24,601 nucleotides of DNA. It comes from a virus. The stretch is taken from IMG/VR virus record IMGVR_UViG_3300020182_001136, positions 1 to 24,601 of that record. The stretch is one strand, 5' to 3'. The notes under the pieces are model-generated. The model saw only the letters and a program-made list of their open reading frames with translations, was not told the origin of the DNA and ran no database searches. Within the stretch, counting starts at the first letter, position 1, and each line of letters starts with the position of its first letter. Both the position numbers and the translations under genes were made by a program. This document shows positions 2,955-20,536 of the stretch, piece after piece.

Positions 2955-3638
2955 TTATTTTGAAGATTTTTGGTCTGCTATCCATTTTTTAGCTCTGCGG
3001 TCGCTTGGTGCAGACATTAAGAATTTATCAATAGCTCTATCAACTTCTAAGAAGTTTGCTTTACGATCCGGATCTTCAAGTCCGCCGCTGTTATCTACAA
3101 TATGAAAATTACCGGCGCCGAATAGCTGTTGAAACTTCATAAGATTTTGTTGAACTGCTTGCCACATCTTAGTTACTTGCTCTTTAGGAAGACTTCTAGC
3201 TCTTTGCACATTGCGCTCCTGTGCTACATCTTCACTTGTGTTGACGAATAGCATCATAGTTTCATAACCCAATGATTTTAGTTGTTCATTTGCCTTTTGC
3301 ACCTTTGCTACGTCTTTGCCGGTACCATCAATAACAAGCCCTAGACGACCTTCAATGTGTGATGCTTCTTTATTCTTTGTAATCTGTTTTGCACGATTAC
3401 GAATTTCTTGCCCTTCATCCGAATAGATATCGTCAGGGGTTAATTCTTTGCCTGCCTTTGTCATCATATATTCATAAATATCATCTGAATTTACTGTACG
3501 TAGTCCTGTACCACTTAGCATCTTATTAGAAACAAAAGATTTGCCACTACCTGGACCACCAGCTAGAAATACTGCTTTAAAAATATGAGGGTCATTCACC
3601 CCTTCTTCTACTGGCTTGATGATTTCATTAACGTACAT
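2955..3638 (-). CDS. Zeta-toxin-like P-loop kinase
   Basis: 227 aa. Walker A GGPGSGKS at residues 27-34 is followed by SNKM and NSDDIYEYM near 50-58, the arrangement seen in zeta toxins and related small-molecule kinases, and by LVIDGTGKDV near 101-110. Bacterial zeta toxins phosphorylate UDP-GlcNAc; phage relatives may act on other nucleotides or polynucleotides, and the substrate here is not evident. No epsilon-type antitoxin gene is adjacent, which argues against a classical toxin-antitoxin pair. ATG start with TTGGAG 8 nt upstream. A late promoter and an inverted repeat that pairs with this Shine-Dalgarno lie just upstream, so expression is probably limited to late infection. Confidence 0.75.
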   Translation of the reverse strand: MYVNEIIKPVEEGVNDPHIFKAVFLAGGPGSGKSFVSNKMLSGTGLRTVNSDDIYEYMMTKAGKELTPDDIYSDEGQEIRNRAKQITKNKEASHIEGRLGLVIDGTGKDVAKVQKANEQLKSLGYETMMLFVNTSEDVAQERNVQRARSLPKEQVTKMWQAVQQNLMKFQQLFGAGNFHIVDNSGGLEDPDRKANFLEVDRAIDKFLMSAPSDRRAKKWIADQKSSK

Positions 3639-5426: not shown

Positions 5427-5732
5427 TTACCCGTTCACTATCACATTGCCACTACCAGATGCTACTCTAATACCACAAGAAAACGCATCACCTACTCTAC
5501 CAAGTGGTTTTCCATTAACCAATACATTAGAAGAACCTTGACGTAGTGGTGTAACATGCGGCACACAAGATGGTGGTGAACCTCGCGGAACACCATGTGG
5601 GGTATCACTGTCTCCAACTCTGAATGCTTGCAGTCCATTAATGATTACATTGCTTGAGCCGCTGGAACATTTACCCGGACCACATGGTGGGTGATTAGTT
5701 GTACTATCTGTTGTTCTAGCAGCGCTTGGCAT
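5427..5732 (-). CDS. PAAR-domain tail-tip protein
   Basis: 101 aa. PAAR proteins cap the membrane-piercing spike of contractile tails (T4 gp5.4) and type VI secretion systems; the fold is a small zinc-bound cone of short beta hairpins. Visible: an N-terminal MPSAARTTDSTTNHPPCGPG, then repeated SSNVIINGLQAFRVGD, SSNVLVNGKPLGRVGD and SGNVIVNG units, with Cys/His residues (HPPCGPGKC, CVPH, FSC) that can bind metal. It ends shortly after the third repeat. The ATG overlaps the stop of the upstream gene as TAATG, so translation is probably coupled. It is directly followed by the 583-aa protein, a candidate partner or cargo. Confidence 0.93.
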   Translation of the reverse strand: MPSAARTTDSTTNHPPCGPGKCSSGSSNVIINGLQAFRVGDSDTPHGVPRGSPPSCVPHVTPLRQGSSNVLVNGKPLGRVGDAFSCGIRVASGSGNVIVNG

Positions 5733-6096: not shown

Positions 6097-7410
6097 TTAC
6101 ATACCACTGCTTTTAAGAATATCCCACCATTTTGGTGCTACACGTTCAAAACTTATATCTCTATATGGATTAACAAAATTATGAGCTTTGTCTTTATTTT
6201 GAATCATCTCTGTAAATTTTAAATTTGTTGTAGGAGCATCTTGTATTCTGTCTGCAATACATTTTAATTTATCTCGGTTATCACTATTATATATTTCATC
6301 ATCGATAATTGATTGTACATGTTTTAATGCATATTCTTTTGCTTCACCTTTAAGATTTGCAACATCCATCCAATCAGGGCCATAAACAATGTTTGTTGAT
6401 AACTGTATATACTTAATACCTGAATCTGACATTCTAGCATTTAATGTATTAACAAAGTTCAATAGGGGTCTTATATTGTGTATATTTAAAATACTTACTG
6501 TTATCGCAACACCCATTTGAGAAAATAAATTATTTTTATTTCGTCTTTTCATATATTCTACAAAACTGATAGCATTTTTGACTTGTTCACTCCATATTGA
6601 ACCTGTTCGCACGTATTCACCTAAGTCTTCAGTGCCATCTAAACTAAAATCAACTGTTAGGGATGAGAATTTATCCCATAGTTTTTCTTTGTAATCATCA
6701 ACTCCTATTGTCCCATTTGTTATGTATTGTATTTTAGGGTCGATATTATTTTCTGCTAACCATTCCAGATATTCATAATGCTGTGGTATTATTAAAGGTT
6801 CACCGCCAGTAAATTGAATGTATTCTAAGTCTTTAGATGCTTTTTTAATATGATCCCAAGTAACATCATCATTAATCCAGGAACTAAGTGCAGTCATTTT
6901 TTTAATATATTTTTTGTTTATGGCACCTTCATTGATATACGAATCTTCTCTTAATAATTTGTTAGAAACAGGGCCTGAGCATGTTCTACATTCAAGATTG
7001 CATTTTGCTCCTAATTTTAATTCTATACTTTTTAATTTAGTTTCTTTGTCAGCCGTAGGAAATTCACTATTTGCCCAAATTCTTCTACTACCTGACCCAG
7101 ACTTTTCAGTACGGTAACAATCATGGCAACCAGTTGCAGGTATATTTTTTACTGATTGCTTTCTAAGATTTGTCCAATCTTTAGAATTTAATATAGGTTC
7201 TAATCCTGCATCTTGTATCCAATGAAATTCTGGAACCTTTTGCCAAGAGAATGTTTCTTTTACTGCATTATGATATGGAGTATTTTTAATTGTATGTTCG
7301 CGATCTGCTTTTTTCCAGTCATAATTACAACAAGGTAATACTGCACCTCGACCTGTAATATTCAGGTGTGAAAATGGCATAATACATCTATATTTCTTAT
7401 CATCATCCAT
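6097..7410 (-). CDS. Radical SAM enzyme, twitch/SPASM-like
   Basis: 437 aa from the chosen start. Radical SAM enzymes bind a [4Fe-4S] cluster through CX3CX2C and cleave S-adenosylmethionine. Visible: C137-X3-C141-X2-C144 in KLGAKCNLECRTCSG, and GGEP at 202-205 for SAM binding. An N-terminal LPCCNYDW (C27, C28) and GCHDCY (C95, C98) supply four cysteines that could bind an auxiliary cluster. The substrate is unknown. I chose the ATG at 7410 (MDDDKKYRC), 10 nt after AAGGAT; upstream ATG 7434 and TTG 7437 lie in frame but extend further into the preceding gene. It overlaps that gene by 8 nt and belongs to the late operon beginning at 8642. Confidence 0.85.
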   Translation of the reverse strand: MDDDKKYRCIMPFSHLNITGRGAVLPCCNYDWKKADREHTIKNTPYHNAVKETFSWQKVPEFHWIQDAGLEPILNSKDWTNLRKQSVKNIPATGCHDCYRTEKSGSGSRRIWANSEFPTADKETKLKSIELKLGAKCNLECRTCSGPVSNKLLREDSYINEGAINKKYIKKMTALSSWINDDVTWDHIKKASKDLEYIQFTGGEPLIIPQHYEYLEWLAENNIDPKIQYITNGTIGVDDYKEKLWDKFSSLTVDFSLDGTEDLGEYVRTGSIWSEQVKNAISFVEYMKRRNKNNLFSQMGVAITVSILNIHNIRPLLNFVNTLNARMSDSGIKYIQLSTNIVYGPDWMDVANLKGEAKEYALKHVQSIIDDEIYNSDNRDKLKCIADRIQDAPTTNLKFTEMIQNKDKAHNFVNPYRDISFERVAPKWWDILKSSGM

Positions 7411-7852
7411 TAGCGTTTCTATCCTTAACTGCATCAATTATTGTGCTTGCGGTATATTTCTTTAGGATATCTAAATCATTTTGCACACGTTCAAATTTAT
7501 CCACTTTTCCATGTAATCTATTCAGGACATACCCGTCCACATAACAAACCAGATACATATCTCCCAATGATAAATCATGTACTAACCATACTTCCGGATT
7601 TAAATCCGGACGAGCATGATACACCGAATAGAAACAACCTACGCCATTTCCACTGTTAGTATAAAATTCTTCTGAAATATATTCCCAAACATCTGGCCAT
7701 ACCTGCGGACGATCATAATCAAACCCATGTCTACTATAATCTAATGATTTCCAAAAATCTATAGCTAATTGTAAATTCTTTTCTGAGAAATCTTCTTTTA
7801 GATTTAGTCGTGTTTGGCGCCATTCAAATAACCGAGTAGCTGTATCTTTCAT
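7403..7852 (-). CDS. Unknown 149-aa protein
   Basis: Not recognised. 149 aa, rich in Trp, Tyr and Phe (for example QVWPDVWEYISEEFY near 50-64), with a predicted beta-rich middle and a helical C-terminus. No signal peptide, membrane segment or known motif. It sits 1 nt after the fibre-like protein gene and overlaps the radical SAM gene by 8 nt, so the three are probably translated from one late mRNA. The tight overlap with the radical SAM enzyme makes it a possible partner or substrate, though nothing in the peptide shows this. Confidence 0.7.
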   Translation of the reverse strand: MKDTATRLFEWRQTRLNLKEDFSEKNLQLAIDFWKSLDYSRHGFDYDRPQVWPDVWEYISEEFYTNSGNGVGCFYSVYHARPDLNPEVWLVHDLSLGDMYLVCYVDGYVLNRLHGKVDKFERVQNDLDILKKYTASTIIDAVKDRNANG

Positions 7853-9384: not shown

Positions 9385-9846
9385 GTTCTTTTTTACAATT
9401 TCTATCATATCCGCTTTCTTTTTTCTGCGGTCAAGTGTTAGACCAAGTGCTTCTTCTGCCCATTCATCTAACTCTTTTTTAGTCATTGCTTCAAAATCTG
9501 GTGTTTCTACTTTCACATCCTCAACTGGACTTACTTTTACTACATCATTATGCTTAATAATGATTGGGTCTGGACCAGTGTCTACTACAAGTTCGTTTGT
9601 AACTTCCACATCTGCTTCACGCAATTTACGCATCGCTTCTTCTTCTGTACGAGCTACCTTTGCCATAAACTCTCTGTGTCGCTTTGCATCAAGAATTTCA
9701 CGTCTACGTTCCGCTACTTCTGGTGGAAGTTTAGAAAGTGCTAGTTCTTCTGCATTTAACTTGTCACGTTCCGCATGTATTTTTTCGTTCATTTCTTTTT
9801 TAGAAATAATTTTTAATTCTTTATCACCTTTAATAATTAATGGCAT
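9379..9846 (-). CDS. Unknown helical protein with C-terminal HeH/SAP-like motif
   Basis: 155 aa. Residues 15-85 are highly charged and helical (many E, K, R), consistent with a coiled coil. Residues about 120-155, beginning MTKKELDEWAEEALGL and ending ADMIEIVKKNL, resemble the helix-extended-loop-helix (HeH/LEM/SAP-like) motif that binds nucleic acids or partner proteins and is common at the C-termini of phage proteins. The function is unknown. The start overlaps the stop of the 106-aa gene as TAATG, so translation is probably coupled. Confidence 0.72.
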   Translation of the reverse strand: MPLIIKGDKELKIISKKEMNEKIHAERDKLNAEELALSKLPPEVAERRREILDAKRHREFMAKVARTEEEAMRKLREADVEVTNELVVDTGPDPIIIKHNDVVKVSPVEDVKVETPDFEAMTKKELDEWAEEALGLTLDRRKKKADMIEIVKKNL

Positions 9847-10166
9847 TATCCAATCCTCTTATCAGTTGCTTTGTTAGCAAGTTTTTTAACTGTTTCTCTA
9901 TCACTGTTTTCCTCACCTTGAGTTGGGGCTCCGACGAGTGTGATAGCATCTACTGTTACCTTACTAGTATACTTGCTATTGCGCATTAAGTCAACAATTG
10001 ATTCAGGTGTCACTGTGTGACCCATATCATTTAACTCTCTAGCTAAAATATCCGTACCGATAGTGAAAATTGAATTCGCCTTTAAACGAACTAGATACGC
10101 ATTAATATCATTAATCAATTGCGCATGTGAATTTGCATCTTCGTTTAAAAGTGTTGAAATTTTCAT
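9846..10166 (-). CDS. Unknown 106-aa protein
   Basis: Not recognised. The peptide begins MKISTLLNE, and residues 15-75 read as a compact alpha/beta unit like a small winged-helix (helices around LINDINAYLVRLKAN and TDILARELNDMGHTVTPESIVDLMRN). The tail is polar and Lys-rich. It starts 3 nt after the stop of the 392-aa gene and overlaps the next gene, so it belongs to the same late operon. A role in assembly or regulation is possible but not shown. Confidence 0.68.
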   Translation of the reverse strand: MKISTLLNEDANSHAQLINDINAYLVRLKANSIFTIGTDILARELNDMGHTVTPESIVDLMRNSKYTSKVTVDAITLVGAPTQGEENSDRETVKKLANKATDKRIG

Positions 10167-12270: not shown

Positions 12271-12777
12271 TTACTTATTAATCTTATTCAAAAGATTTCT
12301 AAATTGTGTCGCTGTCCTTGGATCGCTTGCTAATTTTTCAACTGACGATGCTTGTGCCGCCATTGCTTTGCGCTGGATTGGAGATAATGTCTTACCTTGG
12401 CCCGCTTTATCTACCGCATCCGCCGCTTGCTGACCTGTTGCGCCACCTAAGTTCTTTTTGCCTAGACGTTGCATAGATTGTGCTTTCTGTGCTGATGGAG
12501 CTGATGTTTTGTTTGCTCTCATTTCACTTGGAGATACAGTGCCGCCACCTGAGTATGCTTCTCTCACAAGCCCCAATAATTCTTTAATCGCTTGCTCATC
12601 ACGGTCACGCAATGAACGCATTAGATTGACATAATCAGGAAAGTCAAGAGATTTCATACGCTCACGCACATCATCCTCTGATGCTCCAGCCATATCAGCG
12701 ATATTTGCTAGGCGTGTATTGTATGGTGTTGCTGTTTCGTTTAGCATTGCTTTTTCTATGTCTTTTCTTAATGTCAT
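12271..12777 (-). CDS. Unknown 168-aa protein
   Basis: Not recognised. Residues 1-80 are helical and charged (MTLRKDIEKAML, then ADMAGASEDDVRERMKSL and DEQAIKELLGLVREAY). After a Gly-rich break (SGGGTVSPSEM, about 77-87) the rest is Ala/Gln/Lys-rich and basic, ending in RTATQFRNLLNKINK. No Cys, signal peptide or membrane segment. ATG start with AGAGAG upstream. Its place in a late operon and its basic, flexible C-terminal half suggest a virion or DNA-associated protein. Confidence 0.68.
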   Translation of the reverse strand: MTLRKDIEKAMLNETATPYNTRLANIADMAGASEDDVRERMKSLDFPDYVNLMRSLRDRDEQAIKELLGLVREAYSGGGTVSPSEMRANKTSAPSAQKAQSMQRLGKKNLGGATGQQAADAVDKAGQGKTLSPIQRKAMAAQASSVEKLASDPRTATQFRNLLNKINK

Positions 12778-12784
12778 TTTCTCT

Positions 12785-13069
12785 CTACCTATTTAGTGAC
12801 TTCAATCTACGTGAAGCTGGGTTCATACGCTTTGTCATCTTTGACTTTCTAGCCATTCTAGAACCCATTTTAGCTTTAGTACGTGCTAACGTGAAACGCT
12901 TTTTAATATCTACTGGTTTGAAACACGATGTTGGGTTAGCGACTGTCTTGCCCTTTAGTCTGCCACTTGCACAACGATACTTACGAACAACTGATTTACC
13001 TTTTCGGGCATATACCAGCTTTGCTTCGTCTAGTGCTTCTTGTGTTCCAATAATTTCTTCAATGAGCAT
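12785..13069 (-). CDS. Very basic 94-aa protein
   Basis: 94 aa with an acidic start (MLIEEIIGTQEALDEAKL) and then a strongly Lys/Arg-rich body; residues about 55-94 are almost a run of basic residues with Met, Ser and Ala. Two cysteines (C33 and C49) lie about 15 residues apart. Nucleic-acid binding or DNA packaging in the head is a reasonable guess, with no family recognised. The ATG overlaps the stop of the 83-aa gene as TAATG, so translation is coupled. It resembles nothing else in the window. Confidence 0.68.
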   Translation of the reverse strand: MLIEEIIGTQEALDEAKLVYARKGKSVVRKYRCASGRLKGKTVANPTSCFKPVDIKKRFTLARTKAKMGSRMARKSKMTKRMNPASRRLKSLNR

Positions 13070-14344: not shown

Positions 14345-15178
14345 TTATTTGTCCCTTGACTGAAACTTTCCGCCAAGTTTTCTACCTGTCTGATATGAGG
14401 TTTTACCTAGATATGAACCTAGCTTACCTGCACCATAGATTGCGCCTACTGCCGCAGCCGCTTTGACAATTGGCTTATCCCAAATCTTTTTCTTTTTATC
14501 TTTCTTATCATCAATAATGAAGTTGCCGCGCTTCTGAAACTTTAGAAGTGCTGGTGTAAGTTCACTGCGCATTGCTGATGAACGCATATACTGTGCCATA
14601 CGTGTTACTACTAGCGCACGTTGATTTTGATTTAGATTATCCCAATCACCTACCAGTCTGCGCATAGACTTTAACATACCATCTTGTACGTTCAACTGTC
14701 TTTCTAAACGCATTAGCATAGATTTCTCGAAACTAGCATTAGATTTGTTTGTACCGATATGATTTAGATAGCGCATTACATCTGCTTTCTTAACACTGAT
14801 ACGAGACATAGCAACTTTATCTTTATCGCTAGAATAGTCTTGGTCTTTGCCCATAAGTCTATTAAGAGCAATATATAAGTCTGTGCCGCTTGTTCTAAAG
14901 TAATCAAAACTCTTGAATGCTCCTGTACGACTAGCATATTCACTAGCTAGTGGTGCAAAGTCGTAATCTTTGTTGAATACGTTTAGCATCATTAACTGTA
15001 CGAAAGCTAGATTTGCCGCATCATCTATATTGACACTGCTTGCAATCTTCTTGTTTCTAAACAAACGACTTTCAGTAAGTTCATGTATGAGTTGTAGCTT
15101 ACTATCATTATTTTCTTCGAATGTGTGACCACCTTCAATCTGTGCCCACTCATTTGCTGTATATTTTTTCTTACTCAT
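14345..15178 (-). CDS. Unknown 277-aa protein
   Basis: Not recognised. Residues 1-205 are helical and charged, with an Arg/Met-rich stretch near 155-210. A Lys/Asp-rich hinge (DDKKDKKKKIWDK, about 223-235) precedes a small-residue segment AAAAVGAIYGAGKLGSYLG (about 240-258) that could be amphipathic or membrane-touching, then a basic tail. No enzyme motif. The ATG lies inside the end of the 69-aa membrane protein gene (8-nt overlap), so the two are translationally coupled. It closes the late operon begun at 17888. Confidence 0.7.
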   Translation of the reverse strand: MSKKKYTANEWAQIEGGHTFEENNDSKLQLIHELTESRLFRNKKIASSVNIDDAANLAFVQLMMLNVFNKDYDFAPLASEYASRTGAFKSFDYFRTSGTDLYIALNRLMGKDQDYSSDKDKVAMSRISVKKADVMRYLNHIGTNKSNASFEKSMLMRLERQLNVQDGMLKSMRRLVGDWDNLNQNQRALVVTRMAQYMRSSAMRSELTPALLKFQKRGNFIIDDKKDKKKKIWDKPIVKAAAAVGAIYGAGKLGSYLGKTSYQTGRKLGGKFQSRDK

Positions 15179-15380
15179 CGTTCATCTCTTTAAATCTATC
15201 AGCAAGTTCTTTAATCTTATCACTTGCATATGTTTTACAGCATCTAGGAATAAATGAGTGTAAAGTAATTGCAATCACTGCAATTTGAAGTTCTAGTGCG
15301 ATGCCCATTGCAAATTGTGCATGTTGTAGTGGACCCATCTGTGCTTCTTTTAAGTGTGCTTTGCATTCTTTACTAAACAT
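15171..15380 (-). CDS. DUF6356-like small membrane protein
   Basis: 69 aa. MFSKECKAHLKEAQMGPLQH at the start, then one membrane segment, about 23-44 (MGIALELQIAVIAITLHSFI), then PRCCKTYASDKI. The HLKEA, LQH, HSF-P and KTY-S positions look like the DUF6356 family of small membrane proteins. Its function is not known to me. ATG with GGAAAG 6 nt upstream; it starts 1 nt after the fusion gene stop and overlaps the 277-aa gene. A membrane or lysis-timing role is possible but unproven. Confidence 0.72.
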   Translation of the reverse strand: MFSKECKAHLKEAQMGPLQHAQFAMGIALELQIAVIAITLHSFIPRCCKTYASDKIKELADRFKEMNDE

Positions 15381-15381
15381 A

Positions 15382-17433
15382 TTATCTTTCCTTACTCATA
15401 TTTGCAGCACTGAAACCACTGCGATTTACTAATTTACTGTCACCTTGACCAATAACATAGCCCTCGCCGCCGCGTTCTCCAGCTGTATACGCTTCTACAT
15501 CTGCTTCTGCTGAGTCTAACTGTCCGATAATATCATTTTTTACAGCCATTAAACTTGTGATAACTGTGAATAGTGCTTTCATTCCGTCTGCATTATTGTT
15601 AACATGATTTGCCATACGTTCACGCATTGACTCTGACATTTTTTCATTCGCTAACCACTGACCCCAATCACTTACTAGATTGTCTAGCTTACGTGCTTTT
15701 GTCATGTTGTTAACGTACTTGTATAGTGCTTGCTTGAACGAACCTAGCTTATTAGATTTTAAGAATTCATCTTCTAGTAGGGAATCAATCTTTGATGCAT
15801 TTTGTCTTGCAAATGCTGTTACTTTGTCTAAGTTGTCTGCTTCTACTTTAGGCGCTTGTGTGACTGTTACAGGCGGCATGATAAGCAATCTACCAGCGTT
15901 TAGTTCTGATGCATCTACTTTAGATTTAGAACCGTCTAGTTCAATCTTAGCATGTAGTACTACACCTGACTGACTTTGCGAAATCTGTTTACCAATGTCA
16001 CTCTTTTGTTTAACACGATATGTAACAATGTTTGGAGTAAACTCATAATGACCATCATCAACACCTGGTGTTGTAAAGTATAGTAGATCACCGTGTACAT
16101 AGCCTCTAAATTTCTCTGGCGTAGCTTGCTCATAGATGTCCCAAATGTTTGTCATCTTTTTAACAAATGCTTTTCTATTAGCATCTGGAGCCTCTTTGCC
16201 TCTACGCAAGAACATAGATGACATTTCTTCTTTGCTTGTAACTTTCCCATCGTAGCCCTTTGCACCGAAACCTGATTTATCAGTTAGTACAAACTCTCCA
16301 TTTTCATTACGACCAAAGATAACTGCTGGAGAACCATCCCATTTAACTGTGATATTATCCGGTGATGTTTCTAAGTCTTTCAATGTTTTGATTGCTTTTC
16401 CAATACCCTGAGTACCGTGCCAGATAGCAAAATCTTCTACGTGTTGAATACGTGCATCTTCTCTTAGCGGTGCTTTAACTTCTACGCTTTCGCCTAGTTC
16501 GGTTGGTACACCTGCACCTTGAATACTTGGATTTGATTTGAAGTCTTTGAAAATCTTTTGTGCTAGTTCTTCTGGATAGTTTTTCTTAACTGCCGCATAC
16601 AATGATTCAAAACTGTACAAATCATCTGCGCTATCTAGCTTTAAGATTTTTGCCCAATCTTTTGGATCCTTAAATGGGCCTTTGATTGTTTCATTCTTAT
16701 TTGCTTTAGTATGACCTATTCCACTTTTCTTTTCAACTGGTCTGCGAATTACACGCACCATACCGTCAGTAGGAGAGAACATCCAACGTTCCATCTCTAG
16801 TGGTCTGCCGTCACTTGTAGTTTCTTTACTTGCCTTTACATCAATTGCGCCTGCAATTGAAGCAATCATAATATTACGATGAATGCCTTTATAGTTACTA
16901 CTTCTACCGTCTTGACTCATTTCTTTTGAGTGAGGGGAGTGGTAGTAGTTCTTCATAAAGTCTACATCACCAGGCATGAAGTCTACTTGTACTTTACCGG
17001 TACGTGTCTTGCCATCTAGTTGCTTATCTGGATCATAGTTAACAATATCAACTACGGTCATAAACACACTTGACTTTTTGATTTCTTGAATGCTTGGTGC
17101 TGCTTCTAGTCTTTCAGCAAAGTCTGCAATCTGATCTTTATCTAGCTTAACTGCAATATCAATATCGCCACTGAACTCTTTCTTACCAACAGAACCTAGT
17201 GCATTCTTAATTAGTGGAATACCCAATTCTTTTTCTAGCTTCAATAATGTAGGTTTAATTTCACTGTGATGAATAATACCCACACCTGGCATTGCGCCGC
17301 CTTCACTGATAGTTGTGCTATCCAGTAAACTAGCCATACGCTTGTGAAAGCCTTTTTGCTTTAAACGAGGTTTACGTGGACCTCTAAATCTACGTTCAAT
17401 ACCTTGACTTAAAATAATCTCACTAATCTTCAT
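15382..17433 (-). CDS. Fused Pol-beta-like nucleotidyltransferase and ligase-like protein
   Basis: 683 aa from the chosen start. The N-terminal domain (about 45-220) has the Pol-beta superfamily pattern: GS at 80-81, SGDIDIAV with D90 and D92, and a third acidic residue D151 in VQVDFMPGD. The C-terminal domain (about 330-683) resembles covalent nucleotidyltransferases (RNA/DNA ligases; phage DUF6267-like): motif I KWDG at 364-367 with R375, motif III-like YVHGDLLYF near 445-453, YEFTPNIVTYRV near 463-474, motif IV-like EGYV at 657-660 and motif V-like SKLVNR around K667. A helical insertion (about 530-645) separates IIIa from IV. ATG at 17433 is favoured by an ATGA overlap with the upstream stop and AAGAGA nearby; an in-frame ATG at 17487 lies deep in that gene. 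Predicted to add nucleotides to, and seal, an RNA or DNA end; the substrate is unknown. Confidence 0.85.
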   Translation of the reverse strand: MKISEIILSQGIERRFRGPRKPRLKQKGFHKRMASLLDSTTISEGGAMPGVGIIHHSEIKPTLLKLEKELGIPLIKNALGSVGKKEFSGDIDIAVKLDKDQIADFAERLEAAPSIQEIKKSSVFMTVVDIVNYDPDKQLDGKTRTGKVQVDFMPGDVDFMKNYYHSPHSKEMSQDGRSSNYKGIHRNIMIASIAGAIDVKASKETTSDGRPLEMERWMFSPTDGMVRVIRRPVEKKSGIGHTKANKNETIKGPFKDPKDWAKILKLDSADDLYSFESLYAAVKKNYPEELAQKIFKDFKSNPSIQGAGVPTELGESVEVKAPLREDARIQHVEDFAIWHGTQGIGKAIKTLKDLETSPDNITVKWDGSPAVIFGRNENGEFVLTDKSGFGAKGYDGKVTSKEEMSSMFLRRGKEAPDANRKAFVKKMTNIWDIYEQATPEKFRGYVHGDLLYFTTPGVDDGHYEFTPNIVTYRVKQKSDIGKQISQSQSGVVLHAKIELDGSKSKVDASELNAGRLLIMPPVTVTQAPKVEADNLDKVTAFARQNASKIDSLLEDEFLKSNKLGSFKQALYKYVNNMTKARKLDNLVSDWGQWLANEKMSESMRERMANHVNNNADGMKALFTVITSLMAVKNDIIGQLDSAEADVEAYTAGERGGEGYVIGQGDSKLVNRSGFSAANMSKER

Positions 17434-17651
17434 AATTGTCTCTTTCCGAATGGGCTTTCTCCAGTCAACTGAGGACGAGAAAACCATAATTTAAACCATT
17501 CAGGAGTGCCGGGCTGAATATCATTCTTACGTTGATATTCGCCTTTTTCCGTACCAGTATGAGAGATATTCTCCTGATGTTGTGACACATCATAAGGTTT
17601 ATATATCCCAGCAAGAACTTTTAATTGTTTTAGTTGTGTTTCTAAATCCAC
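17430..17651 (-). CDS. Unknown 73-aa protein
   Basis: 73 aa. It begins MDLETQLKQLKVLAGIYKPY and has a conserved-looking middle YQRKNDIQPGTPEWFKLWF and an end PFGKRQL. No membrane segment or Cys. Similar short proteins occur in marine T4-like phages; no function is known to me. It begins directly after the stop of the 78-aa gene and ends in an ATGA overlap with the fusion enzyme. The tight coupling suggests it may work with that enzyme, which is inference. Confidence 0.72.
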   Translation of the reverse strand: MDLETQLKQLKVLAGIYKPYDVSQHQENISHTGTEKGEYQRKNDIQPGTPEWFKLWFSRPQLTGESPFGKRQL

Positions 17652-17888
17652 TTACTTCTTCTTTGCACTAGTCATGCCTCTCTTAAACTTACGAGGGTCT
17701 TTGGCACGGATACTGTTGACTAAACGCTTAGTCAAGTCACTGGCAACATCTTCGTCAAAAGTACGTTCAATGTACTCCATAAGATTAATTGCGCCGACAA
17801 TAATGTGTTCACCCTTTTGTTCAACAAGGCGTTCTTTTTCTAGTGAAAGAGAATTAAGTTCTTCGAACAGGCTTTTGCGCTTAGTCAT
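17652..17888 (-). CDS. Unknown 78-aa protein
   Basis: 78 aa, helical and charged: MTKRKSLFEELNSLSLEKER, an Ile/Met-rich helix near 28-40 (HIIVGAINLMEYIERTF), then a Lys/Arg-rich C-terminus ending in MTSAKKK. Not recognised. ATG with CGGAGA 7 nt upstream. First gene of the late operon that includes the fusion enzyme. Its start codon overlaps an inverted repeat shared with the late promoter, so it probably is not translated from read-through helicase mRNA. Confidence 0.7.
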   Translation of the reverse strand: MTKRKSLFEELNSLSLEKERLVEQKGEHIIVGAINLMEYIERTFDEDVASDLTKRLVNSIRAKDPRKFKRGMTSAKKK

Positions 17889-17918
17889 GATAAAATCTCC
17901 GTTATAGTGTATTTATCA
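17888..17918 (-). promoter_or_regulatory. Inverted repeat joining late promoter to start codon
   Basis: Minus-strand TGATAAA (17918-17912) pairs with TTTATCA (17894-17888), 7 bp with a 17-nt loop. The 5' arm is the helicase stop codon plus the late motif; the 3' arm reaches the A of the ATG of the 78-aa gene and the loop holds CGGAGA. RNA begun near 17904 lacks the 5' arm. Confidence 0.5.
17909..17917 (-). promoter_or_regulatory. Late promoter motif GATAAATAC
   Basis: Minus-strand GATAAATAC 20 nt before the ATG of the 78-aa gene, overlapping the helicase stop codon. Expected start of transcription near 17904. It marks the change from the early replication block to the late block. Confidence 0.75.
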
Positions 17919-19325
17919 AGTTTCGTCAAAAGCGGAACGAGACTTAGTTTTGAGCATTGCTCTAAGAGATGATGCGGCTTGGCCTTTATCCATTACTGGA
18001 GTATCATCTTCTTCTTTAGTTACAGTTGTCTTTTTGCGTAGTTGATCCACTACACTTGACGTACCTGAACTAGTAATATTGTTGTCTGAATTTTCACTTG
18101 TATCATCTGAGATACGCAAACTATCTCTATCGAATACGAGATTTACCTTACTACCTACACCACTAGATGAACGAGTTTTTAGAAGCTGTAGTTGATACTG
18201 TCCACGTTCACGCATAGCGTTAGATGTAAAGATACCAATCACGTTATCTGCTGTTTGAATTTTAGAGATACCACCAGCGATGTGCGAGTGATCAAATTCA
18301 ATTTCTTCAACTGCACTACGGTTCAACTGTGATGCTGTTACTAACACAGAACCAGTCTCCATAGCGAAGTTACGCATTTCTTCTGTTACGTATTTGTCTT
18401 TAGTATAAGTATCACCTGCTTGTACTTTCATAGTCGCAGGAGTAAGAAGGTCGAGATAGTCAACGCACAAACAATCGACCTTCTTACCTGTCTGGATTTG
18501 TAACTCTTTCAGATATGACCTAATGTCATTAACGCTTGACCCTGATGGGAGATATTTGATTCTAAGCTGTCCGGACTGTTTACCTTTTGCTTTGACCATC
18601 AGTTCCACTTCGTCCAAACTTTTAAAGATGCCTTTTGTACTTCTGTCCGTCTGCATTGCATACATACGCATCGATGAAAGCGATTCCGAAAGTTCCAGAG
18701 TGATGTAGACACAATTAAGACCAGCCTCTGCCCAATTCAGGCTCATATTTTGCATGAATAGAGATTTGCCTGCGCCAGAGCCTCCTGCAAAAATCGTGAT
18801 CTCCCCACGATTAATGCCACCATATAGCTTATCATCAAGGGCTTTCCAGCCTGTAGTCATTTGACCGTTATCGTTTTTCAGTCCTTCCAATACACCTCTA
18901 GGGTCAGCAAAATAATCTGTACCCAATGAACGTGCCAGTCCGGTTTGAACTGCTTCCTTGATTCTAAGTTCTACTTCACCGTATTTGCCAGTCTCCAACA
19001 AATCAGCACTATCGATAATAGCCTTCTCAATAGCCTTATGTCGGCAGAATGTTTCAAATTCATCAACAAACCATTCGATATGCTGGTCGATGTTATCCAG
19101 TTTCTCTACAGTCACTCCCGTTTCTGCCTTAACCATTTCAAGACTTGGGATAGATGAATATTCATCACTGTGTGCGATTAACTGCTTTACCACAGGACGG
19201 ACGCTGCGGTCAAAGTATTCAGGCTTAATGATACTCCGAACTCTTGAATAAAGTTCTGGATCACTAAACATGAACTGTACGAACAGTTGTTGTAAATCGG
19301 GGCTATAATTTTTTACTTCTGACAT
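17916..19325 (-). CDS. DnaB-like replicative helicase (T4 gp41 type)
   Basis: 469 aa, close to T4 gp41 (475 aa). Hexameric 5'-3' helicase that unwinds the fork and works with the primase. The N-terminal helical domain (about 1-125) is followed by the RecA-like domain: TTGWKALDDKLYGG near 157-170, Walker A GGSGAGKS at 181-188, ITLELSES near 208-215, Walker B CVDYLDLL at 287-294, and a motif-3-like VTASQLNRS. The C-terminus (about 415-469) is polar and Thr/Ser/Asp-rich. ATG at 19325 lies 6 nt after a near-perfect -10 element, so the mRNA is predicted to be leaderless. No gp59-type loader is visible nearby. Confidence 0.93.
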   Translation of the reverse strand: MSEVKNYSPDLQQLFVQFMFSDPELYSRVRSIIKPEYFDRSVRPVVKQLIAHSDEYSSIPSLEMVKAETGVTVEKLDNIDQHIEWFVDEFETFCRHKAIEKAIIDSADLLETGKYGEVELRIKEAVQTGLARSLGTDYFADPRGVLEGLKNDNGQMTTGWKALDDKLYGGINRGEITIFAGGSGAGKSLFMQNMSLNWAEAGLNCVYITLELSESLSSMRMYAMQTDRSTKGIFKSLDEVELMVKAKGKQSGQLRIKYLPSGSSVNDIRSYLKELQIQTGKKVDCLCVDYLDLLTPATMKVQAGDTYTKDKYVTEEMRNFAMETGSVLVTASQLNRSAVEEIEFDHSHIAGGISKIQTADNVIGIFTSNAMRERGQYQLQLLKTRSSSGVGSKVNLVFDRDSLRISDDTSENSDNNITSSGTSSVVDQLRKKTTVTKEEDDTPVMDKGQAASSLRAMLKTKSRSAFDET

Positions 19326-19776: not shown

Positions 19777-19853
19777 GATATCATCCAGCCTGTATCCTCT
19801 GGCATCCTTACAGTTCTTGCCCAAACTTTAAGCCACTTGCGTTGTCCGCTCAT
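19773..19853 (-). CDS. 26-aa micro-ORF, translationally coupled
   Basis: 26 codons from ATG at 19853, which overlaps the stop of the ClpP-like gene as TAATG. Its own stop overlaps the ATG of the 63-aa gene as ATGA. The peptide MSGQRKWLKVWARTVRMPED is basic and Trp-rich. Coupling at both ends supports real translation. It may be a functional micro-protein, a remnant of a longer protein starting RKWLKVWARTV, or mainly a device that delivers ribosomes to the next gene. Confidence 0.5.
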   Translation of the reverse strand: MSGQRKWLKVWARTVRMPEDTGWMIS

Positions 19854-20536
19854 TAGTAAGTCTCAATAATGTGATCTGCGATTCCATGCTTCAGTGTTTC
19901 CTCTGGGTTCAACCAACAGTCACTTTCTGGAAGTAACCATTTGCGAATATATGCTTCGTTCTTACCAGTACATTTCTTGTAATGATCCATCATGCGTTCG
20001 GTTGATAGTTCGAACTCTTTTACGATAGACATTAGTTCGTGTTCTTTACCACGTGATCCCCAAGAGTACTGGTGTGACATTACACTTGTATTTTGTGTGA
20101 TATAACGATGTCCTTTTTCGCCTGCCATCATTAGAAGCACACCACATGATGCAATCATTCCCATACCGTATGTGTATACTGGAATAGAACTTTGTTTAAT
20201 TACGTCAATTAGATGGAACGCACTGTTAACTGCGCCGCCCGGTGAATTAATATATAGATGAATTACTTCTGGGCGAGTATCTTCTGGCATCATATTGTAT
20301 TCCATAATCATTTTGACTAGTGGCATACAGTTCTCTTGATTGAACTCTTTGTCCATGAATAGAACGCCTGCATCGTACAGTAGTTCACCTGGTTTCTTTG
20401 GTTGTGCCGGTGGTTGTGGCATAGGCATCGGTGGCGCGGTTGGCGCTACCTTAGGTGTCGGGATTACTTTTGTCGTTTCCGCTGGTTTTTTAGCCGGAGC
20501 TTTTTTCGTTACTTTCTTCTTAGGTGCTTTAGCCAT
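19853..20536 (-). CDS. ClpP-like serine protease with basic N-terminal extension
   Basis: 227 aa. The ClpP-like domain spans about 52-227. LYINSPGGAVNSAFHLIDVI is followed by the nucleophile in MIASCG (S130), MSHQ (H155) and ESDCWL (D206), a complete Ser-His-Asp triad, so it should be active. The first 50 residues are a Lys/Ala/Pro-rich extension ending in QPPAQPKKPGEL, absent from bacterial ClpP apart from short propeptides; it may be cleaved or may bind a partner. ClpP barrels usually need an AAA+ unfoldase; none is encoded here, so it may use host ClpX/ClpA or act alone. It lies 9 nt after the primase gene and overlaps the micro-ORF. Confidence 0.92.
   Translation of the reverse strand: MAKAPKKKVTKKAPAKKPAETTKVIPTPKVAPTAPPMPMPQPPAQPKKPGELLYDAGVLFMDKEFNQENCMPLVKMIMEYNMMPEDTRPEVIHLYINSPGGAVNSAFHLIDVIKQSSIPVYTYGMGMIASCGVLLMMAGEKGHRYITQNTSVMSHQYSWGSRGKEHELMSIVKEFELSTERMMDHYKKCTGKNEAYIRKWLLPESDCWLNPEETLKHGIADHIIETY

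Follow-up and report, generated by a model that had tools for sequence, protein, structure and literature searches.

The window analysed here is the whole 24,601-nucleotide stretch of the virus record IMGVR_UViG_3300020182_001136 (IMG/VR), from a marine phage. Its minus strand carries a gene of 683 amino acids (aa), with its ATG at 17433 and its stop ending at 15382, in which a short leader precedes a nucleotidyltransferase (NTase) half and a ligase-like half. That the two halves form an enzyme pair is very probable. We give about an even chance to the fuller reading that the gene encodes a head-targeted, protease-released pair that fills and seals nucleic acid, with DNA more likely than RNA as the substrate. 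In this scheme, the 44-aa leader would bring the chain into the prohead, where a T4 gp21-type prohead protease would cut after LxE at residues 44, 315 and 325. The cuts would release polymerase and ligase as separate enzymes that are retained in the head, and both would be delivered to the cell along with the phage DNA. Once inside, they may fill and seal gaps or nicks of the incoming genome, residues 45-315 adding nucleotides at gaps or ends and residues 326-683, an OB-less ligase of the DUF6267 family, sealing via a nucleotidyl-K364 intermediate. The domains, the conserved residues, the pairing, and the leader and sites with their statistics are computational results, and catalysis, a DNA substrate, cleavage, packaging and injection are inferred.

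Layout of the fused gene

The features of the gene are as follows, a slash marking each proposed cut.

15382..17433, minus strand: 683-aa gene, leader plus family-X-like nucleotidyltransferase plus DUF6267 ligase-like domain
17302..17433, minus strand: leader, residues 1-44, MKISEIILSQGIERRFRGPRKPRLKQ...TISE, proposed capsid-targeting propeptide ending ISE/GG
16489..17301, minus strand: family-X (Pol beta/lambda)-like palm-thumb nucleotidyltransferase, residues 45-315, from AlphaFold and Foldseek
17158..17166, minus strand: predicted catalytic Asp pair D90-I91-D92, invariant
16981..16983, minus strand: predicted third catalytic Asp, D151, invariant
16489..16497, minus strand: L313-G-E315/S, first proposed cleavage site, at the C-terminal end of the NTase; LxE in 13/13 distinct fused linkers
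16459..16467, minus strand: L323-R-E325/D, second proposed cleavage site, immediately ahead of the ligase core ARIQHVED; LxE nearby in 13/13 distinct fused linkers
15385..16458, minus strand: DUF6267 ligase-like covalent nucleotidyltransferase, residues 326-683, with a helical insertion and no C-terminal OB domain
16342..16344, minus strand: K364 of motif I KWDG, predicted nucleotidyl-lysine, invariant, codon confirmed
15463..15465, minus strand: E657 of motif IV EGYV, conserved
15433..15435, minus strand: K667 of motif V KLVNR, conserved

The start at MKIS is backed by the related loci L007, L010 and L013, where the open frame begins one codon earlier. An earlier note on this DNA, which did not give the strand, had read G80-S81-X8-D90-I-D92, D151, K364-W-D-G, H447-GDL, E657-GYV and S666-K667-LVNR from the translation, and all are present in that order. 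The motif residues do not vary freely among homologues; they are invariant or nearly so at 21-32% identity, and conservation over such deep divergence indicates that the motifs are more than chance.

The nucleotidyltransferase half resembles family X DNA polymerases

When profile searches were run on each half separately, the ligase half fell into DUF6267, and the NTase half gave only a sub-threshold Pfam match to Polbeta and was placed in no family. Among the NTase members, the best Pfam E-values were 0.0018 for Polbeta and 0.11 for DNA_pol_B_palm. In 30 NTase relatives, no variation is seen at the G, the S, either Asp of DID or the third Asp, and the same holds with five jumbo-phage outgroups added (24-32% identity). 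Both halves were modelled with AlphaFold from alignments of 28-30 relatives, and in the models the motifs of both halves lie on or next to strands, as expected. The NTase model has a predicted local distance difference test (pLDDT) score of 93.0. Foldseek placed only structures of DNA polymerases beta and lambda among its 50 best PDB matches (best E 4.5e-5, probability 1.00), a count inflated by the abundance of Pol beta structures in the PDB. The alignments span ~240 of 274 residues with moderate TM-scores of only ~0.4, suggesting a divergent palm-thumb. On this modelled fold, we recognise the NTase half as an unannotated phage family-X-like polymerase.

Two observations count against this assignment. 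Comparison with PolX by hhalign was weak (probability 6.4, E 0.0058) and confined to the GS..GDID region, and the N-terminal 8-kDa/HhH domain of family X is absent, the core starting at the palm and being preceded by the leader alone. The PolX of African swine fever virus also lacks this N-terminal domain (PMC5537341). Membership in the RlaP family was considered and rejected, as the RlaP profile (PF10127) matched none of the 30 NTase members at E-values up to 10. PDB sequence searches with the NTase half and with the ligase half returned nothing useful.

The ligase half belongs to DUF6267

Residues 329-682 match DUF6267 (PF19782) in Pfam with an E-value of 4.2e-35 and 122.2 bits, against a cut-off of 27. 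PF19782 and PHROG 455 (phrog_455) are both families of unassigned function, and a literature search for DUF6267 found no paper. The order of motif I (KxDG) followed by III, IV and V, all conserved, is that of covalent nucleotidyltransferases of the ligase and capping type. Among ligase relatives down to 21-22% identity, K364, D366, G367, D449, E657, G658 and K667 each show either no variation or at least 90% conservation. A long helical insertion precedes motif IV, and the chain stops 12 residues past motif V, indicating that this half has no OB domain.

The model of the ligase half has a pLDDT of 90.8. Against a viral structure library, the matches below DUF6267 itself were RNA and DNA ligases at E ~0.08-0.3. 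One of these was a 324-aa protein of Agrobacterium phage Atu_ph07 named RNA ligase, apparently, from its length and source, the Atu_ph07 partner gene described below. Less favourable to a DNA ligase are the PDB matches of the model, none of which was confident (the best sensible one was a fungal tRNA ligase, E 0.1), and the weak Pfam matches of this half, which are to RNA ligases (RNA_lig_T4_1 and PNKP_ligase). Pfam gave no match of the ligase half to PF01068 or PF01653.

The two halves are paired across phages and are mostly encoded separately

Scans of IMG/VR yielded 21 and then at least 80 loci. With more than 100 viral relatives overall, the pairing of the two halves was upheld. Outside the window's clade, most IMG/VR loci have two adjacent, slightly overlapping genes with the NTase first. 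The fused form dominates in the window's clade and also occurs in L055 and L081, suggesting that the fusion arose more than once or was repeatedly lost. The earlier note had pictured one permanently fused enzyme; the predominance of split relatives, together with two prohead-protease-type LxE sites in every fused linker, speaks against that picture.

In the annotated phage collection, the ligase half alone was found in T4-like cyanophages, Pelagibacter phage HTVC008M and Methylophilales phages. The NTase half alone was found in Pseudomonas jumbo phages (the PA5oct group), Sinorhizobium phage Phosso, Atu_ph07, Flavobacterium phages and Lak phages. PA5oct, Phosso and Atu_ph07 have a separate KxDG gene 1-3 genes upstream of the NTase. 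These KxDG genes are related to one another, bear motifs I, IV and V, and align with DUF6267 by hhalign (probability 87, E 3.8e-6) from motif I through a PNxxxY segment. By this profile comparison, the jumbo-phage KxDG partners are distant homologues of DUF6267.

Among 84,980 bacterial and archaeal genomes scanned, one relative turned up, on a contig of a Planctomycetota metagenome-assembled genome that is probably a viral contig. This suggests that essentially only viruses carry the NTase. Viral sequences scanned with the PA5oct NTase as the query gave no matches. The loci L013 and L011 have identical leaders and ligases that are 98.3% identical, with different NTases, that of L013 clustering with split NTases. 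This points to exchange of the NTase module by recombination.

Some relatives show other arrangements. In Synechococcus phage S-PM2 (L031:4992-6767), DUF6267 is fused to a C-terminal HIGH-type cytidyl/nicotinamide mononucleotide (NMN) adenylyltransferase-like domain, and in other cyanophages DUF6267 and such a protein are encoded by adjacent genes. The NTase gene of a Flavobacterium phage (L028) is followed by a gene annotated NadR. In L059:4614-5834 the NTase lies at the C-terminal end of a longer protein, and in L081:3579-6902 the NTase-ligase follows an extension of ~480 aa; in both, LxE stands directly ahead of the NTase core.

Leader and linker carry sites of the prohead protease type

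The first 44 residues form a basic leader ending in ISE/GG, which fits [LIVF]xE/[GS]G, the type of site cut by the T4 prohead protease gp21. In 96/96 leader-bearing frames, comprising 37 distinct upstream contexts, [LIVF]xE stands directly before the polymerase core with a variable middle residue; across the proteome, [LIVF]xE[GS] occurs at a rate of 0.0027 per position. Leaders range from the four residues of MLTE (MLTE/GG) to the long N-terminal extension in L081. Free-standing jumbo-phage NTases begin at the leader junction with MGG or MSG, which argues that the fold does not need the glutamate at this position. In L018, a leader 82% identical to that of the window sits directly on a cyanophage-type ligase that is 24.5% identical to the window's ligase. 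Split ligases also have short leaders of their own, such as MKFRELITE/N, MKINEILME/K and MKIREIINE/S, which we take to resemble the T4 capsid targeting sequence. Among cultured phages, Pelagibacter phage HTVC008M and Methylophilales phage Melnitz bear copies with leaders, the DUF6267 protein of Melnitz having a short LxE one.

The linkers show the same pattern. Two LxE sites occur in each of the 13 distinct fused linkers: the first coincides with the natural NTase C-terminus, and the second falls shortly ahead of the ligase core. Within the domains themselves, [LIVF]xE is depleted about two-fold relative to shuffled sequences (36 against 76.7 expected in the NTase, 45 against 79.7 expected in the ligase), with z-scores that are inflated by the relatedness of the sequences, a point that weakens this argument. 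The control motif [LIVF]xD was not depleted in either domain, and [LIVF]xE was not depleted in the helicase, primase and 277-aa protein from the same loci. Counted genome-wide in N-termini, LxE[GSA] was little enriched in genome G001 and modestly in genome G004, and the packaging argument therefore rests on the orthologous junctions rather than on genome-wide counts.

Evidence from virions and proteases

T4 internal proteins reach the prohead by means of a short propeptide, which gp21 removes (PMC3012670; PMC5694885). In a giant phage, propeptides are longer and paralogues have identical N-termini (PMC5694885). Contigs of G004 and G006, both with leader-bearing copies, encode a gp21-type protease, and in G004 sites of the same kind are present in both the protease and the major capsid protein. 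The evidence from virions is indirect. In cyanophage S-SZBM1, with genes matched to the published virion table by length and gene order, the gene after DUF6267 encodes a cytidyltransferase with the N-terminus MRFRQFIIE/A (362 aa, S-SZBM1_140) that was found in purified virions, as was the next protein (457 aa, S-SZBM1_139). The leaderless DUF6267 protein of the same phage (397 aa) was absent from that table (PMC9146016). NMN adenylyltransferase (NMNAT)/cytidyltransferase-like proteins recur in cyanophage virion proteomes (PMC9602691, PMC10665884). The PA5oct NTase is annotated as a structural protein by electrospray ionisation tandem mass spectrometry. Collectively, these results suggest that the 44-aa leader, which the earlier note had overlooked, is a head packaging signal, and we consider head targeting and cleavage probable.

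Several findings pull the other way. No T4-type prohead protease was identified on the window record, which is too short to decide the matter, and the contigs of G001 and G002 gave no gp21-type protease match. The G001 contig lacks prohead protease, major capsid protein and portal alike; with all three missing, it is probably incomplete and uninformative. The PA5oct NTase, a virion protein, has no LxE leader, and many cyanophage DUF6267 proteins are leaderless, so packaging is not universal. The annotation of the PA5oct NTase as a structural protein, and nothing more, would also suit one or both halves being non-catalytic, DNA-binding virion proteins. The active-site residues are invariant across deep divergence, which makes this most improbable.

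DNA is favoured over RNA as the substrate

None of the nine phages with DUF6267 that we examined (six of them Kyanoviridae) has a PF01068 or PF01653 ligase, and a canonical DNA ligase is present in 5/6 of those without DUF6267; the phage records in this comparison are mostly related and some are fragments. The contigs L052 and L053 hold the fused NTase-ligase together with a canonical ATP-dependent DNA ligase (PF01068), which detracts from the DNA reading. Strict mutual exclusion of DUF6267 and canonical DNA ligases was thus rejected, leaving a mere tendency. The sugar-gate region of the NTase reads Y163-Y164-H-S-P instead of Y-F-T-G-S and does not settle DNA versus RNA. From the family X fold, the replication neighbourhood and the canonical-ligase tendency, we regard DNA as the fairly probable substrate, about twice as likely as RNA.

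The ligase counts bear on a further explanation, in which both halves are cytoplasmic DNA replication or repair enzymes that are never in the head, DUF6267 makes up for the absence of a gp30-type DNA ligase during infection, and the leader serves some other purpose. The leaderless cyanophage copies and the position of the genes in a replication cluster agree with it. Apart from the relatedness and partial nature of the compared records and the presence of both ligases in L052 and L053, this explanation leaves the 96/96 LxE junctions, the two sites per linker and the intradomain depletion unaccounted for, and we hold it to be quite unlikely.

The earlier note had proposed end addition and sealing by one protein, acting on cut RNA (such as tRNA cleaved by host defence) or on DNA ends. 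The two conserved catalytic-type halves, which belong together, are consistent with adding to ends and sealing them; RNA is not supported as the leading substrate. In RNA repair, RlaP-like in kind, the NTase would restore nucleotides at RNA ends, for example in tRNA cleaved by a host defence, and resealing would fall to the ligase half. The weak Pfam matches of the ligase half and its sensible structure matches, which are tRNA/RNA ligases, fit such a role, as do the jumbo-phage KxDG partners, which weakly match RNA_ligase. In jumbo phages, pairs of an NTase (RlaP) and an RNA ligase have been predicted to repair RNA (PMC7824862). The modelled NTase fold matches family X DNA polymerases, with no RlaP match, and the module adjoins primase and helicase, lying between these and conserved neighbours. 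Moreover, true RlaP genes occur elsewhere in Atu_ph07 and a Lak phage, both of which also carry this NTase. Together, these results make RNA repair rather unlikely. Searches of NCBIfam and PADLOC gave no matches, and there is thus no sign of a defence system.

Relation to known systems

The closest parallel for the fill-and-seal pair is PgVPolX of Phaeocystis globosa virus, a fusion of PolX and an NAD+ DNA ligase in which gap filling is likewise followed by sealing (PMC5537341). PgVPolX belongs to a eukaryotic giant algal virus, has 5'-deoxyribose phosphate (5'-dRP) lyase activity and a full NAD+-type ligase, and was shown to work as one fused enzyme (PMC5537341). In the window protein, the polymerase part is a minimal palm-thumb, the ligase is of another kind (DUF6267, OB-less), and the linker seems open to cleavage. 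It shares with the systems of RlaP and RNA ligase described by Burroughs and Aravind (PMC7824862) the pairing of a phage Pol-beta-superfamily NTase with an ATP-grasp ligase, and differs from them in having no PF10127 match, a fold nearest to Pol beta/lambda, a replication neighbourhood and a putative head-targeting leader. T4 internal proteins and Alt, which are injected and processed by gp21, also have a short N-terminal propeptide ending in hydrophobic-x-E (PMC3012670, PMC5694885). T4 cargo is not known as polymerase/ligase pairs, whereas in the window protein the proposed cleavage would also split two enzymes of one chain. The window's ligase half is a member of DUF6267 (PF19782)/phrog_455, to which the ligase motifs, the pairing and the leader are newly added here. 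Bacterial LigD, the polymerase-ligase enzyme of non-homologous end joining, also joins the two functions in one chain, and no homology was seen. LigD has a primase-type polymerase and an OB-containing ligase, unlike the window protein. What is new relative to these systems is the combination of a different polymerase subtype, a functionally unassigned ligase family and a linker seemingly built for cutting.

These findings give DUF6267, which is widespread in T4-like cyanophages and pelagiphages, a testable function, and they suggest that a prohead protease can release two injected enzymes from one precursor. It is possible, at a little short of an even chance, that many marine and freshwater T4-like phages load into the head and inject a DNA repair kit of family X polymerase and DUF6267 ligase as pro-enzymes, mending the genome on entry. 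The kit would sometimes be a polyprotein cut in two by the prohead protease, and some lineages would add kinase-like or NMNAT-like enzymes. If so, the host would receive a complete repair pathway from these phages ahead of any gene expression, and LxE leaders would offer a practical way to predict which proteins environmental phages inject.

Neighbouring genes

The common gene order is primase, helicase, 78-aa gene (phrog_11854), NTase, ligase and 277-aa protein. The neighbours in the window are as follows.

17916..19325, minus strand: DnaB-like replicative helicase, conserved upstream gene
17652..17888, minus strand: 78-aa conserved neighbour, phrog_11854 (virion structural protein), E 1.7e-17
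17430..17651, minus strand: 73-aa open reading frame, ATGA translational coupling, almost confined to the window's clade
14345..15178, minus strand: 277-aa conserved downstream neighbour, by homology and synteny

The 78-aa neighbour is syntenic also in PA5oct, Phosso and Atu_ph07. In Phosso and Atu_ph07, the gene immediately following the NTase encodes a homologue of the 277-aa protein (BLASTP E 1e-17 and 2e-26, respectively). As the earlier note had described, the ATG at 17433 shares ATGA with the TGA of the 73-aa frame (17651-17430). Since the 73-aa gene is almost confined to the window's clade, the coupling is local rather than general. Its product was therefore rejected as the possible partner suggested in the earlier note, the conserved neighbours being the 78-aa (phrog_11854) and 277-aa proteins.

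Directly downstream of the ligase lies a gene for a DUF6356 protein (15171-15380, minus strand, E 2e-10) that is conserved in many, not all, relatives. A ClpP-like protease gene (19853-20536, minus strand; PF00574, phrog_94 head maturation protease) lies between primase and helicase, mainly in the window's clade. Further away on the minus strand, a radical-SAM-like CxxxCxxC protein (6097-7437) and a PAAR-like tail-tip protein (5427-5732) were recognised by eye.

Other genes with LxE-type leaders

On the minus strand of the window, 2955-3638 encodes a P-loop protein resembling a small-molecule or polynucleotide kinase or a zeta toxin, whose leader is of the LxE type (MYVNEIIKPVEE/G); the HTVC008M homologue (MIPFILKE/G) lies two genes after DUF6267. 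Genes that look by eye like PD-(D/E)XK nucleases, with no useful Pfam match, adjoin or lie near the ligase in pelagiphages, Methylophilales phages and PA5oct phages (L027:4923-5981, L032:3881-4966 and L023:4647-5666), and two of these proteins start with LxE leaders (MLSFTGYSNLSE/A and MQGFKTFLSE/A). Three small proteins on the minus strand of the window (9846-10166, 12271-12777 and 12785-13069) have possible short LxE leaders (MKISTLLNE/D, MTLRKDIEKAMLNE/T) or are very basic (94 aa), and are possibly further head proteins.
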